Source: a virus. Taken from it: a stretch of 41,481 bases of DNA. Below are positions 2,900 through 39,404 of the stretch, in pieces. The stretch is taken from positions 1 to 41,481 of IMG/VR virus record IMGVR_UViG_3300036865_000018; one strand, given 5' to 3'. Both the position numbers and the translations under genes were made by a program. Under the pieces are notes generated by a model that worked only from the letters and a program-made list of their open reading frames with translations, did no database searches and had not been told where the DNA came from. Position 1 is the stretch's first letter, and each line of letters begins with the position of its first letter.

Positions 2900-3363
2900 C
2901 AGAAGGGCAACATGGCGGCCGGAACGTTCGCCAGCACTGCGGCCACGCCTGCATCAAGTTGCGTCTGGTTCGTGATCGTCGCCGTGGCGAGCCGCGAGGA
3001 CCAATCGACCAAGAGCGCCTGGACGGCCGTCACGTCCGATGGCAAGATCCCCAACGCGGTCGCGCCCGCTGAGAGTTCAGTCGGGAAGTTCGTCATGATC
3101 GTCTGATTCAGCGCGAGACGCTGGAGAAAGGCGGTGCCGAGATCCTGCGTTGCCTTCTGCACCCTCGGCCAATCTTGAAAGAGCGGTTGCCCCGGAGTCT
3201 CCGCGCTGTGCTGGATGATCTGCACGTTGGCCCGCATGTTGTTCTGCATCGTGGAGAGGTTCTGCGTGATCTCGACGACCGCGTAGAATCGGTCGATGGT
3301 GGTGGGCGCGGCGACGGCCACCCACAGGACGACGAGGCATACGAGCTCGGCAAGGCGCCTCAC
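2899..3363 (-). CDS. Secreted or membrane-anchored helical protein (154 aa)
   Basis: I place the start at GTG 3363, which overlaps the stop of the large fibre gene as GTGA. A longer ORF reaches 3600 only by reading antisense-like sequence inside the fibre gene. From GTG, the N-terminus VRRLAELVCLVVLWVAVAAP is a signal peptide or membrane anchor. The rest is helical and Ala/Gln/Thr-rich, with a QNLSTMQNNM segment and repeated ATATITNQTQLDAGVAAV-type stretches. No family recognised. Confidence 0.65.
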   Translation of the reverse strand: MRRLAELVCLVVLWVAVAAPTTIDRFYAVVEITQNLSTMQNNMRANVQIIQHSAETPGQPLFQDWPRVQKATQDLGTAFLQRLALNQTIMTNFPTELSAGATALGILPSDVTAVQALLVDWSSRLATATITNQTQLDAGVAAVLANVPAAMLPF

Positions 3364-6300
3364 GGACACGCCACTACGTTCGGCCCGAAGATCGCCGACG
3401 CCCCCGCCGAGTCCGTCACGTTGGCGGTCACGCTTGCCCCGTCCCGCACGAGGGTCTTCGTGAACACAAAGGGCGCGGTCGTCTGCGTGGGCTTGCCGCC
3501 CGGCGTGGTCGAGATGGTCTGCACCCCATCCACATACCACGTGACGGCCGTGATCGGCAATGCCCCCGAGGTCACCCCGAGGACCAGGGACACCGGGCAC
3601 CGCTTATTCGACTGCGTGACGATGAACCCGGTCGGCCCTCCCGAGCCCGCGAGGGTAAAGGTCGCCACGCAGGACTTCGCCGAGTCCATCAGGACCGTCA
3701 GCGGCGAGGTGGTGCCCGAGCACCCCGCGCTTCCGCTCCAGCCCGAGAACACGGACCCCACGTTGGGGGTCGCCGTGATGATGGCATTCGCGCCTTGAAT
3801 GAACGACCCCGAGCCCGTCACGGTCCCGAGCCCGCTCCCGGTGGCCGTGGCCGTCATCGTCACCGTGGGCAGGAGTGTGAAGGTCGCCGTGCAGGTCGTG
3901 TCAGCCGTCAACGTCACGGTGCCCGTCGAGCACGCCGCCGGCGACCAGCCCCCGAAGAACGAGGCCGCATTGGGCGCAGCGGTCATCGTGACCACTGAGC
4001 CATCCGGGTAGGTGCCCGCGCCCGTGGTCGTGCCGCCGCCTGTGCCTGCGGTGTTGATCGTCAACACGCGATTGGGCTGCGCCACGTTCGGCGTGCTGAA
4101 GGACGCGAGGCACACGGTATCGAGGTTCAGCGTCACGTTTACGGTCGGATTCGTGGGGTCGGTGCAGTTACTCCCCGAGGTCGTCGTCCAGCCTGCGAAC
4201 GCGGACGCGGGATCCGGGATCGCCTGGATCTGCACGACGGAGCCCTGATAGTAGGTACCCGCCCCAGTGACCGTCCCGGTGCCAGCTCCAGTCTTGTTCA
4301 GGGTCAGCGGATGAATGTTGACCGATGGCGCCGTGGCAAGCGAGGACAAGAGTAGTGCCCAATTCGGCGTCGTGCCGATCGCCAGCGCGGGCGCATAGCT
4401 ATCGCCAGTTCCGGTGAAGCGCCGAGAACCGTAGAAGCTCGCCACGTTCGCTGTGCTCGCCCCGCCGTTGGTGCCATTACTCGTCGTCCCGGAGGCGTAG
4501 TTGGGCGCTTGGGTAAACGTGGTGCTGGACGGACCCTCGACGCCCAATGCCCCGAGGAACAGGCGCACGACGTTACTGAGTCCCGTCATCACCGCTGAGG
4601 GGGAGGCCGAGGCGCCGTTGGTCCCGATGGTGGAGGAGTTCGTGAACGTGGTGCTCGCGTTCAACGCATATTCTTCGAGTGTGATCGAGCTGGCGATCGT
4701 CGGCGCCGAGAGCGTCAGCGTGACGGTGTTCGCAGAGGTCAGCGACGCGAACGGGCGCGAGCCCCAGAGCGAGACCGTGACCCCGTTGCCCGCCGCGCCC
4801 CCGGAGCGTGTCTGCTCGCCGAGCTTCACGTATTGATTGCCGAGGCTATCGACCATCTTCACGTGATCGGACGTCTGCCCGCTCGTGGTGCTGAGGTTGT
4901 CGGTCACCGCCCGCACGATCAGGAGGTTGTTCTTGTTCGCAGTCGCGGTCGGCGTGGCGGTGATGACGTTGCTCAGGGACTTCGTCGCGGTCGCCCCACG
5001 GTTGCCGAGGTAGGCGAAGTCGCCGAGTTGTGTGTTGAAGGTGGCGGTGCAGATCGTGCTCGAGGTGATCGTCACCGAACCATCAGTACAGTCGGCGGCG
5101 CCCGTCCAGCCCGCGAAGTCCGAGGTCGGCGTGGGCGTGGCCGTGAGGTTCACGACGGTTCCATTGACGTAGGTCGTCGTGCCGGTCGGGATCGTGGTGC
5201 CGGTGCCAGTGCCGGCGTTCGTGATCGTGAGGGAGATCGGGCCTCCGGTGGCGCAGGCGATATTTGAGAGGCCGCTCCCGTTCGTGCCCGCAAGAGACGC
5301 TTGGACTTGATAACAACTCGTCGGGTTGCCGGAGAGCGTGTCAATGTACGAGACCGAGGCCCCGCCAACCGTGGCATAGACGACCGTCGTCGGGGTACAC
5401 GTGGGAGTGGTCGTCACGCACCGATAGATGTTGAATCCATCTTGCGTGAACGGCGCGGTCGGCGTCCAGTGCAGCGTGCGCGTGGTGGAGTTGGTCGTGG
5501 TCGTGGACGCACTCGTAGCAAAGGCGCTTGTGTTCCCCGCCGCATCCCGCGCCCGGACCTGCCACGTGTACTGCGTGCTGGCGCTCAGCCCCGTATCAGT
5601 AAAACTAGTCGTCGTCGGCGTCGCGATCTGGACGAAGGCATTGGTGCCGAGCGCGCGTTGGAGATCATAGGCGGTGACGCCGACGTTATCGGTCGAGGCG
5701 GCCCACGCAAGATCCGCCGACGCGGACGTGACATTCGAGACCGAGGGGACTCCGGGCGTCGTGGGCGGCGTGACGTCGCCGCTCGCCGCCGCCTGGAAAT
5801 TCGCGCCCGTCATGACCGATTTGTCCCAATTCAGCCCGCCCGTCGTCCACGTATGCGTTGGATTCGCCGTGCCGGGGCCTCGGTCGCCCCCGGTCGGGTT
5901 AAAGACTGAGTCGGTCCACAGCCCCGTCTGATTGGTCGTGGGGGTGCCGGTCCCGTTGAAGCCCATGAAGGACGTCGCCGACAGATCCCCGGCCGCGCTG
6001 GTGATAGACAGCGAGACCGTGCCGCCCGACCCTCCGCTGACGGCATTCCCGTGATTGACCGGCGTCGTCGTATCGACACCCGTCGCGCTGATCGCGCCAG
6101 ACTCCATGATGTAAGTACCGCCGCCATGCACGGTAAAGGCGATCGAGACGGTCTGGGCGCCGACGAGCGCGGTCGACCCTCCCCAGCTCTCGGCGTGAAG
6201 CAGCGTGTCCACGCTATCCGCCGTTGATCCAGCAATCAGCGCGAGCCCCGTTGATCCGACCGACACCGAATTGATGGTCGGCATGGACCCAAGCGTCTGA

Positions 6301-6497
6301 TCCGAGATCAGGATATGCACGATCACGCCCTTGGTGCCCGCACCGAGCGTGATCGAATAGGTGAACGGCGAGGCGGGATTGGCCGACTGGACCCCGTTAC
6401 CGAATGCGTCGAATGAGACGGCGGCCTCCACGGGGGACGCGCGCAGGATCGCGAGCGCCACCAGGAGGAGCACGCCACGGCGTATCAGGCGCGTCAT
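3360..6497 (-). CDS. Large secreted fibre/adhesin-like protein with FN3 and InlB-B-type repeats
   Basis: The ATG at 6497 (ATGA overlap upstream) gives 1045 residues. A signal peptide (MTRLIRRGVLLLVALAILRA, cleavage near VEA-AV) is followed by a beta domain (about 27-240), a fibronectin type III domain (about 240-335, with ADLAWAASTDNVGVTAYDL and YTWQVRARDAAGN), and a second FN3-like unit (to about 415). Next comes an InlB-B-like repeat (about 420-490), a second copy of an N-terminal-like beta domain (about 490-725), and three more InlB-B-like repeats (about 725-960; each has AGTG..T.G.GTY..GSVV, a central FxGW and a closing Cys-x-A-T/S-F). The C-terminus is Ig-like. Such domains bind host surfaces or glycans. 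A role as receptor-binding fibre is inferred; a secreted phage-encoded adhesin is also possible. Confidence 0.75.
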   Translation of the reverse strand: MTRLIRRGVLLLVALAILRASPVEAAVSFDAFGNGVQSANPASPFTYSITLGAGTKGVIVHILISDQTLGSMPTINSVSVGSTGLALIAGSTADSVDTLLHAESWGGSTALVGAQTVSIAFTVHGGGTYIMESGAISATGVDTTTPVNHGNAVSGGSGGTVSLSITSAAGDLSATSFMGFNGTGTPTTNQTGLWTDSVFNPTGGDRGPGTANPTHTWTTGGLNWDKSVMTGANFQAAASGDVTPPTTPGVPSVSNVTSASADLAWAASTDNVGVTAYDLQRALGTNAFVQIATPTTTSFTDTGLSASTQYTWQVRARDAAGNTSAFATSASTTTTNSTTRTLHWTPTAPFTQDGFNIYRCVTTTPTCTPTTVVYATVGGASVSYIDTLSGNPTSCYQVQASLAGTNGSGLSNIACATGGPISLTITNAGTGTGTTIPTGTTTYVNGTVVNLTATPTPTSDFAGWTGAADCTDGSVTITSSTICTATFNTQLGDFAYLGNRGATATKSLSNVITATPTATANKNNLLIVRAVTDNLSTTSGQTSDHVKMVDSLGNQYVKLGEQTRSGGAAGNGVTVSLWGSRPFASLTSANTVTLTLSAPTIASSITLEEYALNASTTFTNSSTIGTNGASASPSAVMTGLSNVVRLFLGALGVEGPSSTTFTQAPNYASGTTSNGTNGGASTANVASFYGSRRFTGTGDSYAPALAIGTTPNWALLLSSLATAPSVNIHPLTLNKTGAGTGTVTGAGTYYQGSVVQIQAIPDPASAFAGWTTTSGSNCTDPTNPTVNVTLNLDTVCLASFSTPNVAQPNRVLTINTAGTGGGTTTGAGTYPDGSVVTMTAAPNAASFFGGWSPAACSTGTVTLTADTTCTATFTLLPTVTMTATATGSGLGTVTGSGSFIQGANAIITATPNVGSVFSGWSGSAGCSGTTSPLTVLMDSAKSCVATFTLAGSGGPTGFIVTQSNKRCPVSLVLGVTSGALPITAVTWYVDGVQTISTTPGGKPTQTTAPFVFTKTLVRDGASVTANVTDSAGASAIFGPNVVACP

Positions 6498-7486
6498 ACA
6501 GCGGCCGCGAACCACCTCGGAACAGAGCCCACACCAAACCAGCGCAAGATCGTCGTGGTCAGCCAGGAGATGGTCAGATTGGCCGGAGTTCCGGGGGTAG
6601 CCGCCGTTCCAGCACATCCGATCCGCGTATCGCCCGCTGCCGGATCGTCCCAGTAGATGATCGAGCCCTGAGCCGCCGACTGCCGATACAGCATGAACCC
6701 GCCGAACGTAGCATCGGCAAAGTTACTGCCCGTGGTCGTCGGCGCGCGCGTTTCCAGGTTCTGAAGGTTGATCTGGAGCGCGCCATCAATCCAGGATTGG
6801 ATCACGCCATCCCGCACGCCCGGGGTGTTGAGCTTGTAATGATACTCTAGGCAGTGCCACGAATTATCGGGGATCGGGACCGCCAGCCCACCGTCTCCGG
6901 CGAACGGCTCACAGTCATTGAACCAATTTGTTGTGTAGGCGCCGCCCACCTGAACCCCGCCGACGATGTTGCTTGAATAGCAGGCGTAAGAGTCAACCGT
7001 ACCCGTGTGTGCGAGTCGGTTGCCGAGGTTTTCGGGGATGAACTCTGGAAAGGCGCCGGTCCCCGTCGAGGGCGAGAAATTCTTGATGTACATCATCTTC
7101 GAGTGCCCATTGACCGGGGACGGAAAGTAATTAATCGTGTAGCGCCAGGCCCGGAAGTACATCTCGGTCACATGCGGGAGCGCCGTCAAATCCCCGGCCG
7201 ACTGCTGATTGCCCTTCGACATATCGCAGGCGTCGAAGTTGTCTTGCGAGGCGTCGGTATTCGAGTACGTGAACTTCACCGACTTCGTGCCCGAGTGAGC
7301 CTGTTCCGTCGAGATCACGCAATGATCGACGCCATCGGGAAAGTTGTTCGTCCGTAATGTCCAGCCCGAGGGCGGCGTGAATGGGACGACCGCTGTCTCG
7401 AAGTTCTCATCGAAGAACACAGTGGCATCGGCGCCACCCGAGAGCATCCCGATCACCGTCAGCGCGAGGAGGAGACGCCAGATCAT
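6494..7486 (-). CDS. Secreted ConA-like jelly-roll protein (polysaccharide lyase/lectin-like)
   Basis: The start at 7486 overlaps the upstream stop (ATGA). The 330-residue product begins with a signal peptide (MIWRLLLALTVIGMLSGGAD). The mature part has features of concanavalin-like folds: FFDENFE near the start, a WHCLEYHYKLNTPG strand pair, a VIQSWIDGALQ strand near 235-245, and IIYWDDPAAG near 280. This pattern is typical of polysaccharide lyase and LamG-type jelly rolls. It may bind or degrade host polysaccharide as a tail protein. Catalytic residues cannot be assigned by eye. Confidence 0.6.
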   Translation of the reverse strand: MIWRLLLALTVIGMLSGGADATVFFDENFETAVVPFTPPSGWTLRTNNFPDGVDHCVISTEQAHSGTKSVKFTYSNTDASQDNFDACDMSKGNQQSAGDLTALPHVTEMYFRAWRYTINYFPSPVNGHSKMMYIKNFSPSTGTGAFPEFIPENLGNRLAHTGTVDSYACYSSNIVGGVQVGGAYTTNWFNDCEPFAGDGGLAVPIPDNSWHCLEYHYKLNTPGVRDGVIQSWIDGALQINLQNLETRAPTTTGSNFADATFGGFMLYRQSAAQGSIIYWDDPAAGDTRIGCAGTAATPGTPANLTISWLTTTILRWFGVGSVPRWFAAAV

Positions 7487-18113: not shown

Positions 18114-18335
18114 CTATTTGACGCTCCCCGCGCCACGCAGCAACGTGTCCAGCGCCCCGAAGAAGGCCCGGTCATCATGCTCGCCAAGCCTCCGGGCCTT
18201 GGCGTCCGACGCCTTGAGATCCACGCAGTTCTGATACCGCTCACCCTCGGGATTCTCGGCAACATACACACATGGTTTCGTCGTCGCGCACCCCGCCAAG
18301 AGCACCAGCGCCACGATTCCAGGAACGGTCTTCAT
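18114..18335 (-). CDS. Small lipoprotein, o-spanin-like candidate (73 aa)
   Basis: MKTVPGIVALVLLAGCATTK is a lipoprotein signal with lipobox LAGC. The mature part is short and charged, with two further cysteines. ATG 18335 has a GGGGGAG SD about 8 nt upstream. It follows the lysozyme and a holin-like gene, so it may be an outer-membrane spanin (Rz1-like) for the last lysis step. No matching i-spanin is obvious. Confidence 0.6.
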   Translation of the reverse strand: MKTVPGIVALVLLAGCATTKPCVYVAENPEGERYQNCVDLKASDAKARRLGEHDDRAFFGALDTLLRGAGSVK

Positions 18336-18359
18336 GGTCGTCTCCCCCCGCGACCATTA

Positions 18360-18554
18360 TCACCCATCCCGGTCGTGGCCGTTGATCAGGTTCTTGACGC
18401 TCTGGATCTCGGCGTGCGTCGCGCCCGCGACCAGCGTGGCGTGCTCGGCGGCGATCTTCGCCTTGCGACTCGTCCACCAGGCGAGGATTGAAAAGATCGT
18501 GACGGAGACGTAGTAGAGGATCGCGGCGAGGGCAACGAGGCGATCCAGAGTCAC
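18360..18554 (-). CDS. Holin-like single-pass membrane protein (64 aa)
   Basis: GTG 18554 overlaps the lysozyme stop (GTGA). The product has one hydrophobic helix (LVALAAILYYVSVTIFSILA) followed by a positively charged, helical C-terminal tail (SRKAKIAAEHA). Position directly after the lysozyme fits a holin or i-spanin-like role. The longer ORF reaching 18770 is the lysozyme antiframe and was rejected. Confidence 0.6.
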   Translation of the reverse strand: MTLDRLVALAAILYYVSVTIFSILAWWTSRKAKIAAEHATLVAGATHAEIQSVKNLINGHDRDG

Positions 18555-18976
18555 CACGTCCCGCTCACCATATGCCGTTCCAGCCGGATCGCCCGGTCCC
18601 CGACCTGCCTCGCCCATTTCGAGTCCCGCATCGCATCCGCCGCGCGCTCCCAATTCTGGGCGCGGATCGCGGAAATCATGTCGTGAAACCCGAGCAGCCC
18701 GTCCACGCCGAGGTTGAAGGCCATGTTCATCAGGACTGTGAACCGCACCGGGTCGAGGCCCGTCAGCCACGGAAGGGCCGAGACCAGCTCGCGCTCCTTG
18801 GCGGCAATGTCATCGTCCCGGATCACGTCGATGGCGTGGTCGCTCAGCGGCGTGGATTCTAGGTTGTGTCCGACGCCGACCGTCCAGACCCCGCGTGAGT
18901 CCTGATAGGCGCGGTTCTTCCGGCCCTCGTCCCGTTCGAGTTGCGCGATCAGGTGCAGGCGCGTGAGATCGTCCAT
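18551..18976 (-). CDS. Phage lysozyme (GH24, T4-lysozyme family)
   Basis: 141 residues. The start of the fold matches T4 lysozyme: a catalytic Glu in LERDEGRKNRAY, an Asp nine residues later (QDSRG) and a Thr/Gly strand (VWTVGVGHNL). Together they give the E-x8-D-x5-T arrangement. It continues with helices carrying NMAFNLG and ends RLERHMVSGTW. It cleaves peptidoglycan glycan strands during lysis. There is no signal peptide, so it needs a holin. It begins at ATG 18976, overlapping the upstream stop (TAATG). Confidence 0.9.
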   Translation of the reverse strand: MDDLTRLHLIAQLERDEGRKNRAYQDSRGVWTVGVGHNLESTPLSDHAIDVIRDDDIAAKERELVSALPWLTGLDPVRFTVLMNMAFNLGVDGLLGFHDMISAIRAQNWERAADAMRDSKWARQVGDRAIRLERHMVSGTW

Positions 18977-19200
18977 TAGCGTTCCTGCCCCTTCTCCATC
19001 GCGTCCTTCATCTGATCCAGCAGCTCCTCGGTGGTAAATCCGCGCTCCTCGCATTCGCTTGTCTTGCCCACGTCAGCGACGGCTGCGCGCGCTTGCTCGC
19101 AGGTGCCGCGCGAGATCCAGAAATTGACCGGGTGCGCCAAGTCCGGGTGCCCCGAGCGCAAGAGGAGGTAGAAGGTCCAGAACAGGCACTTAAGGATCAT
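18976..19200 (-). CDS. Small secreted or membrane-anchored protein in the lysis cassette (74 aa)
   Basis: The N-terminus MILKCLFWTFYLLLRSG is hydrophobic and could be an anchor or signal. The rest is charged and helical at the end (TTEELLDQMKDAMEKGQ) with two cysteines (GTCEQ, SECEE). It overlaps the upstream gene by 4 nt (ATGA). A spanin-like or lysis-regulatory role is possible. Confidence 0.5.
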   Translation of the reverse strand: MILKCLFWTFYLLLRSGHPDLAHPVNFWISRGTCEQARAAVADVGKTSECEERGFTTEELLDQMKDAMEKGQER

Positions 19201-37933: not shown

Positions 37934-38145
37934 GCACCCTCTCCGTCCACCACCACTGGACCCTTCGCCAGGACGACCAGCGCGCGTGTACCTGCGGGCC
38001 CGCGAATCCGCGACATACGTCCGGGACGCAGTGCTTCAAGCGGGCCGAGGTGGCGGCGTTCATGCGGGCGCATGGGATCGGGAGTGAGGGGAAGGCGCGC
38101 GCCCTTCTTTTCATCGAGTCTTTCGCCCCGAGCCCCCGCCCATGA
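37930..38145 (+). CDS. Small Cys/His protein (71 aa)
   Basis: ATG 37930 overlaps the upstream stop. MSTLSVHHHWTLRQDDQRAC then TCGPANPRHTSGTQC, with His and Cys residues that could bind a metal, and a helical C-terminus. No family recognised. Confidence 0.55.
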   Translation: MSTLSVHHHWTLRQDDQRACTCGPANPRHTSGTQCFKRAEVAAFMRAHGIGSEGKARALLFIESFAPSPRP

Positions 38146-38537
38146 CCGAGCGCCCGGCGCACGATGAGGACTGTGAAGTGAGGCGAGATGCCGTGGCCCT
38201 GGTGCGCCTGCTCCTACCGGGCGAGCCTTGTCAAGTTGGAGCGGGGATGACGAACTACGCAAAGGGCGCACGCTCCGAGAAAAAGACGCGCGTCTGGCTC
38301 GAAGCGCAGGGCTATTGGGTGATCGAGGCGCGCGGGAGTCACGGCGCGGTGGATCTCGTGGCGATAGATCCGGATCGCGTGCTCTTGATCCAAGTCAAAT
38401 CCGGGCGAGCGCTCGGTCCTAAGGAGCATCGACTTGCGGTGGACGCGCTCCTTGCCATCCCGATTCCGACGATCGGGGAGCGCTGGTTGCTCTCGTGGCC
38501 GAAGTATGCGAGAACTCCGACTGTGGAGATGGTGTGA
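38142..38537 (+). CDS. PD-(D/E)XK nuclease, Holliday-junction-resolvase-like (Hjc) (131 aa)
   Basis: The fold matches archaeal-type Hjc resolvases: YAKGARSEKKTRVWLEAQGY provides the first helix with its Glu, GSHGAVDLVAID provides the catalytic Asp, and VLLIQVKSGR provides the Q-x-K motif, completing the E-D-Q-x-K set. Many Hjc proteins begin near YAKGAR, about residue 38 here. ATG 38142 overlaps the upstream stop and gives a 35-residue extension; ATG 38247 (GGAG upstream) is an alternative start. It may process replication or recombination junctions before packaging. Confidence 0.75.
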   Translation: MTERPAHDEDCEVRRDAVALVRLLLPGEPCQVGAGMTNYAKGARSEKKTRVWLEAQGYWVIEARGSHGAVDLVAIDPDRVLLIQVKSGRALGPKEHRLAVDALLAIPIPTIGERWLLSWPKYARTPTVEMV

Positions 38538-38722
38538 CCATTCACTACTTCCAACGGAACACGGCGCGGCGCCTGATGACGCGCGCGGAATCAGACTGGT
38601 GCGATATTGCCTTGAAGAACTTAGCCCTGGCCGGGCTCGTGCGTGACGTCCGCACCCATAACGGCGACGAGACGAGCACGATGGATCGCGAGCCCGGCCA
38701 GTCACAGAAGAAGGAGAGATAG
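38534..38722 (+). CDS. Small hypothetical protein (62 aa)
   Basis: GTG 38534 overlaps the nuclease stop (GTGA). TIHYFQRNTARRLMTRAESD continues into a helix and ends in a Lys/Arg-rich tail. It lies between the nuclease and the Acb2-like gene. Function unknown. Confidence 0.5.
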   Translation: MTIHYFQRNTARRLMTRAESDWCDIALKNLALAGLVRDVRTHNGDETSTMDREPGQSQKKER

Positions 38723-38723
38723 G

Positions 38724-39404
38724 GTGGACAATCAGCATCGCGAGATTAAGGGGTATCGGGAACTCGACGCGACCGAGATCGCCTTAATGAATGAGGTCAA
38801 GGAGGCAGGCGTGGGCCTTGGGGATCTCGTCGCGAGACTCCGCAATATGAGCGCGAGCCTCGACCAGCGCTGGGTGTCCATTGGCGCCACGCACCTCCAA
38901 GAAGGTCTGATGGCTTTGACGCGCGCGATTGCCAAGCCGACATTCTTCGTCGCGTTGTGTGCGCTCCTCTTTGCCGCCTGCACCTCCGGCGTAGACATTC
39001 AGCTCCCCCAGCATCCCCAGCCGCAGTCCCTCGGGGAAGTGCTCGCCAACGTCAAGGGGGATACGCTCCTCGATCTTGACGCGGCCCAAGCGATTGCGGT
39101 GGCGCATGGTGACGTGATCGCCCAGGCGTGCTATCCCGTGCTCAAGAAGTATCTAGCGCCGGCTACTGGGCAGGCGACTGTCGATCAGGTGGTGGGTCTC
39201 GTGTCCGGATTCGAGAAGATCCGCGTGGAGCGCATGGCGATTGAGTCCGGGAGCGGGGGCGTTCCGGGGATTCCTGCCGATCTGCGCCTCGGCTGCGCCG
39301 CGCTCATGCAGACCGAGAAGGAATTTGCGATCCGCATGGCGGCCCTGATCGCGGGGGGCGTGGTGCCGGGCGTGGGTGTCATGGCGCCGCTGTTGCCGAA
39401 GTGA
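38724..39404 (+). CDS. Acb2-like anti-CBASS protein fused in frame to a lipoprotein (226 aa)
   Basis: GTG 38724 has AAGGAG upstream. Residues 1-72 match the phage Acb2/Tad1-type helical hairpin (DUF7681-like): NQHREIKGYRELDATEIALM, then DQRWVSIGATHLQEGLMALT and RAIAKPTFF. Acb2 forms a hexameric sponge that sequesters cyclic nucleotides from CBASS; from memory its ligand-binding residues are Tyr11 and Lys26, and both occupy those positions here. Then, in the same frame, MALTRAIAKPTFFVALCALL continues into a lipobox (FAAC) and an exported domain of about 135 residues. A fused or two-product gene is possible. Confidence 0.6.
   Translation: MDNQHREIKGYRELDATEIALMNEVKEAGVGLGDLVARLRNMSASLDQRWVSIGATHLQEGLMALTRAIAKPTFFVALCALLFAACTSGVDIQLPQHPQPQSLGEVLANVKGDTLLDLDAAQAIAVAHGDVIAQACYPVLKKYLAPATGQATVDQVVGLVSGFEKIRVERMAIESGSGGVPGIPADLRLGCAALMQTEKEFAIRMAALIAGGVVPGVGVMAPLLPK
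38910..39404 (+). CDS. Internal start: putative lipoprotein (164 aa) from within the Acb2-like gene
   Basis: ATG 38910 lies in frame in the Acb2-like gene and is preceded by GAAGG. MALTRAIAKPTFFVALCALL with lipobox LFAAC is a good lipoprotein signal if translation starts here, whereas it would be internal in the full-length product. The mature part (TLLDLDAAQAIAVAHGDVIA, IPADLRLGCAALMQTEKEFA) is helical with paired cysteines. I do not recognise its family. Possibly superinfection exclusion or defence interference. Confidence 0.5.
   Translation: MALTRAIAKPTFFVALCALLFAACTSGVDIQLPQHPQPQSLGEVLANVKGDTLLDLDAAQAIAVAHGDVIAQACYPVLKKYLAPATGQATVDQVVGLVSGFEKIRVERMAIESGSGGVPGIPADLRLGCAALMQTEKEFAIRMAALIAGGVVPGVGVMAPLLPK

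Follow-up and report, generated by a model that had tools for sequence, protein, structure and literature searches.

An Acb2-type hairpin domain in frame with a lipoprotein in a metagenomic phage record

Can a single phage gene carry both an Acb2-type anti-CBASS domain and a lipoprotein and, if so, what would be made from it? The question arises from a virus record of 41481 bases, analysed here over its whole length (the window), which has genes for a terminase, a major head protein and an endolysin. A sequence-only reading had placed at 38724-39404 an Acb2-like domain continuing into a lipoprotein, possibly as a two-product gene. Its coordinates and frame were right, a 226-codon ORF extending from a GTG (38724) to a TGA (39402-39404) with no internal stop. 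The 20 nt upstream of the GTG gave a duplex energy of -8.8 kcal/mol, and the GGAG in front of it, together with the overlapping start of the following ORF at 39401, is arranged as in an ordinary phage operon (Table 1). Codon-position G+C is similar in the two halves of the frame (0.65/0.41/0.74 and 0.73/0.45/0.80). Just 5' of the fusion, a 131-aa ORF (38142-38537, + strand) matched Holliday-junction resolvase and PD-(D/E)XK nuclease families weakly, the best E (0.0006) being under the cut-off. Elsewhere in the window, a 1085-aa protein (3360-6617, - strand) with a fibronectin type III domain and four InlB B-repeat-like stretches is perhaps a tail or surface-binding protein.

Table 1. Coordinates of the features in and around the Acb2-lipoprotein reading frame
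Feature	Position	Strand	Basis
GGAG Shine-Dalgarno core, 7 nt spacing to GTG 38724	38713..38716	+	sequence
Acb2-lipoprotein fusion gene, 226 aa	38724..39404	+	ORF translation; stop overlaps GTG of next ORF (39401)
Acb2 part, residues 1-75	38724..38948	+	Pfam, PDB sequence, alignment, ends of relatives, fold match
Tyr11 codon	38754..38756	+	invariant in alignment
Lys26 codon	38799..38801	+	invariant in alignment
GAAGG, SD-like, 4 nt before ATG 38910	38901..38905	+	codes conserved Gln-Glu-Gly motif
Met63 ATG, where a stand-alone lipoprotein might start internally	38910..38912	+	sequence
Predicted lipoprotein export signal MALTRAIAKPTFFVALCALLFAA	38910..38978	+	residues 1-13 of the signal belong to the Acb2 C-terminus
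Putative mature lipoprotein domain (141 aa, Cys86 onwards)	38979..39401	+	two further family-invariant Cys, profile match

The Acb2 half

The Acb2-type domain with Tyr11 and Lys26, for which a profile search had been proposed as a check, was borne out. In the Pfam search, PF24729 (Acb2_Tad1_hairpin) covered residues 10-71 over all 58 profile positions with an E of 6.7e-17 and 61.9 bits, against a curated cut-off of 27, and PHROG 717 matched the same half with an E of 1.6e-19. When compared by phmmer with PDB sequences, the Acb2 half retrieved 8h2j, 8h2x, 8h39 and 8ixz 'p26' (E 3e-12). The AlphaFold model of this half is a two-helix hairpin with pLDDT 83-96, whose meaningful Foldseek matches were Acb2 (8h2j, 8h2x) and T4 Vs.4 (7uq2), with probability 0.99-1.00, target TM-score 0.57-0.66 and a best E of 1.8e-3. 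Over its N-terminal 74 residues the ORF product shares with Acb2 (PF24729; 8h2j, 8ixz; T4 Vs.4, 7uq2) the fold, a hairpin of two long helices, as well as Tyr11 and Lys26, the RW motif and, at the C-terminal end, MALTRAIAKPTFF.

Eighteen Acb2 relatives, with identity up to 82%, were found in viral contigs. A 16-row alignment contains 18 invariant columns, including Y11, K26, R49, W50 and R67, and no column invariant in the 15 other sequences is changed in the window. In Acb2, a hexamer that takes up cyclic di- and tri-nucleotides and counters CBASS, Tyr11 is a residue of the di-nucleotide pocket, and both Y11 and K26 contact the ligand. Against the relative L003 the Acb2 codons gave a dN of 0.14 and a dS of 1.42, so that the domain has been under purifying selection over that divergence. 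Two Acb2-like genes, in L016 (frame from 4692) and L017 (frame from 1636), lack the N-terminal NQHR-I-GYREL motif, Tyr11 position included, and retain the C-terminal half.

The other Acb2 genes end at one place: 141 of the 147 loci with an Acb2 match (window excluded, some sharing a contig) stop exactly at the Phe matching F75, and in the remaining six the end lies anywhere from one residue short of it to seven beyond. Since the window chain runs 151 residues past this Phe, it contains an Acb2 domain and is not a free-standing Acb2 protein; the other Acb2 proteins in this analysis are some 70-110 aa long and finish with the terminal Phe, whereas the window adds those residues with a predicted export signal. 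A hairpin with an additional domain is already known from Tad1 (PMC12043709). The window has the hairpin in common with Tad1 and phrog_717-type proteins (match at 199-285 of the 289-position profile), but there the extra domain lies N-terminal of the hairpin, while here it lies C-terminal and would be exported.

The lipoprotein half and the joint

The C-terminal part gave no match by tblastn in phages and plasmids, by a peptide-pattern scan of viral contigs, or in Pfam, PHROGs and NCBIfam scans. Its family was reached only through a hand-made motif, AxAxGDxxAxxCYxxL, scanned over viral contigs, which returned five matches, every one a lipoprotein with its own signal peptide. The alignment search found these five to be homologous with the window C-domain and added L032, so that the members are L023 (7386-7907), L024 (9556-9987), L025 (4476-4913), L026 (4996-5466, - strand), L027 (545-919, - strand) and L032 (5863-6345), the last with a type I signal unlike the lipoprotein signals of the others. 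A leave-one-out profile of these six relatives, window excluded, found the fusion frame with an E of 2.5e-20 as the best of 605 window frames; the next frame reached 0.21, and among 500 shuffled copies the lowest E was 0.077. By these comparisons the C-domain belongs to a real protein family, which no named Pfam or PHROGs entry matches. Window and relatives share DL..A...A.A.GD..A..CY..L, F...R and a later Cys at 25-33% identity, but all six relatives have a short signal of their own and none has an Acb2 part. Besides the lipidated Cys the family keeps two invariant ones, encoded in the window at 39129 and 39294, which would suit an exported, oxidised C-domain. The AlphaFold model of this domain is poor (mean pLDDT 57), and fold comparison with it gave no significant match. 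A joint alignment of Acb2 and lipoprotein relatives was misaligned and was dropped.

In four relatives the neighbours are of lysis type or small membrane proteins. Upstream of the L032 gene lie an endolysin gene (phrog_181, 7e-38) and a lipase gene, with a weak holin match as well; a small membrane protein without significant match precedes the family gene in L026, L024 and L030. A link of the family to lysis is only a lead, because clear lysis genes occur in L032 alone, the neighbours in the other three having no significant match. The fusion itself is not beside lysis genes, the window endolysin (18551-19054) being on the opposite strand and 20 kb off. This endolysin belongs to a separate lysis-type cluster (18114-19054, - strand), in which a possible membrane protein overlaps it and a small lipoprotein, MKTVPGIVALVLLAGCATTKP, is encoded at 18114-18335; this lipoprotein has no relation to the fused one.

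At the joint, MALTRAIAKPTFF passes straight into VALCALLFAAC with no stop between, right behind Phe75, the last conserved Acb2 residue. Indeed, the lipoprotein is in the same frame and its predicted signal begins inside the Acb2 C-terminus, as the sequence-only reading had it: MALTRAIAKPTFFVALCALLFAAC leads in frame from ATG 38910 to Cys86 (38979), with basic residues preceding the hydrophobic run. This signal and those of the relatives all pass one simple pattern and hydrophobicity test, although lipobox position -3 is an unusual F in the fusion as against L or V in the lipoprotein relatives. In the AlphaFold model a break at K71-P72 is followed by a separate low-confidence helix (residues 73-87). 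The signal peptide of the free relative L025, MRSIFFATATLSLLAAC, contains an FF equally far from the Cys as in the fusion; exactly this joint could thus have arisen by loss of the DNA from one FF codon pair to the other.

A related arrangement is found in phage nested genes such as the Rz/Rz1 spanin pair, with Rz1 in another frame from Rz. As there, a lipoprotein signal overlaps another coding sequence, but the window uses one frame, with no stop between the parts.

Occurrence of the arrangement

Within the sequences searched, the window so far holds the only copy of the fusion. Scans for longer Acb2 genes, which reach only genes of the specified codon make-up, gave three viral matches with a codon starting in A, C or G after the Acb2 motif, each with 1-2 extra residues, and none with TYN codons at that place; in genome contigs there were eight matches, none of them an Acb2 gene. 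The same pattern retrieved at least 120 stop-terminated acb2 genes, as against no other long extension. Among 398 bacterial genomes the Acb2 domain occurs in nine, and the five loci whose C-terminus was readable by tblastn are unfused; the lipoprotein domain gave no match in these 398 genomes, in a search run without a positive control.

It is unusual for acb2 to adjoin a lipoprotein gene: this is so at 2 of 135 loci, where the lipoproteins are of other families. In L085 a lipoprotein gene from another family (MKKVILALAGLTVLAACSN) lies 41 nt 3' of acb2. The L032 phage has both genes unfused, with about 8.5 kb between them and each on a different strand. Relatives with a stop codon between the two halves had been named as what would point to a sequencing error; this condition does not strictly fit the case, as a stop does follow Acb2 in the relatives, but in none does this lipoprotein adjoin. 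In the literature searched on Acb2 with a lipoprotein, or on Acb2 domain architecture, we found no Acb2 C-terminus fronting a lipoprotein signal, and the earlier statement that no such arrangement was known agrees with both searches. Acb2 itself is known, and its C-terminus as the front of a lipoprotein signal is new so far within the sequences and literature searched.

A proposed single precursor and the other explanations

As an alternative to a single precursor, the gene might give the full fusion from GTG 38724 and, by internal initiation at ATG 38910, a stand-alone lipoprotein, which we consider rather unlikely. Phages offer familiar cases of in-frame internal initiation (f1 gene II/X, phi-X174 A/A*, lambda C/Nu3), and this would count for such a product, as does the well-formed signal that ATG 38910 opens, with Arg and Lys ahead of the hydrophobic run. 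The GAAGG noticed by the sequence-only reading is also present 4 nt 5' of this ATG, but does not exceed expectation: both are codons of the conserved Q-E-G-L-M motif, the spacing is short, and 39% of 135 unfused relatives have an SD-like stretch as strong or stronger at the matching site. The duplex energy there is -4.0 kcal/mol, as against -8.8 for GTG 38724, and initiation at ATG 38910, while possible, is not indicated, since its ribosome-binding site is no stronger than the coding motif gives. The separate cytoplasmic sponge that had been envisaged fares no better; with no stop codon after the Acb2 half, all ribosomes starting at 38724 enter the lipoprotein, so that initiation there must yield the fusion and free Acb2 would need proteolysis.

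The fusion could also be a recent accident (stop loss or deletion) in one phage lineage, with at least one half no longer functional. It is a singleton, Acb2 elsewhere ends strictly at Phe, and of the 16 columns that the six other family members hold invariant the lipoprotein half deviates at 3. Against this, stops and frameshifts are absent, all Acb2 invariant columns are kept, the coding signature is intact in both halves and the strong SD is retained, which makes an accident of this kind improbable.

That two separate genes were joined by an artefact of assembly or sequencing is likewise improbable. In favour of it, the record is metagenomic, with one copy of the joint, and the only close relative of the phage found, L028 (4418 bases, 89-95% DNA identity over most of its length), spans about 29.6-34.4 kb of the window and ends short of the fusion. 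Against it, two genes are not recovered by any one-base change, a chimera would need its join to be in frame, to coincide exactly with the final codon of Acb2 and to make up an export signal, and the operon goes on with the overlapping start at 39401. A simple one-base error was rejected from the junction frames, since the Acb2 half is complete as far as F75, its final residue, and the lipoprotein would then have no usable start of its own; the sole start codon between the Acb2 end and Cys86 is TTG 38955, eight residues ahead of the Cys.

We therefore favour, at roughly even odds (a probability of about 0.5), a genuine in-frame fusion giving one precursor from GTG 38724, with the sponge in the cytoplasm and the lipoprotein outside. 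Both homologies, the unbroken invariant columns and purifying selection in Acb2, the position of the junction with the matching FF of L025, the strong SD of the GTG, the alike codon-position G+C and the two further Cys of the C-domain argue for it; the single copy, the F at lipobox -3 and the poor C-domain model without a significant fold match argue against. In addition, the strict end at Phe in 141 of 147 loci may mean that a free C-terminus matters, and a helix after Phe75 might disturb the Acb2 hexamer.

In such a fusion, the acb2 stop would have been lost and the last sense codon joined to a phage lipoprotein gene, at the codons for the hydrophobic core of its signal peptide. Starting at GTG 38724, translation would give a single precursor, whose Acb2 hairpin would remain cytoplasmic and sequester cyclic nucleotides, while Arg67 and Lys71 with the following hydrophobic helix would act as a single membrane-spanning, N-in/C-out export signal. 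Cys86 would be lipidated, with the C-domain outside the inner membrane, and a cut by signal peptidase II before Cys86 would leave Acb2 as a membrane-anchored 'signal peptide', which intramembrane proteolysis may later free. More tentatively, Acb2 may serve as the leader of the lipoprotein, being tethered at the inner membrane through export and signal peptidase II, perhaps released later, and made in a fixed ratio with the exported lipoprotein.

If the gene is expressed as read here, a sponge-type immune evasion protein would be tied to the membrane and made together with a second, exported protein. Acb2 would then tolerate a C-terminal extension even though nearly all its relatives stop at one residue, and there would be a testable case of a folded cytoplasmic domain forming the front of a lipoprotein signal. 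If Acb2 does act as a leader, the sponge would be placed at the inner membrane, the site of action of CBASS membrane effectors. The fusion also draws attention to an unnamed family of phage lipoproteins.
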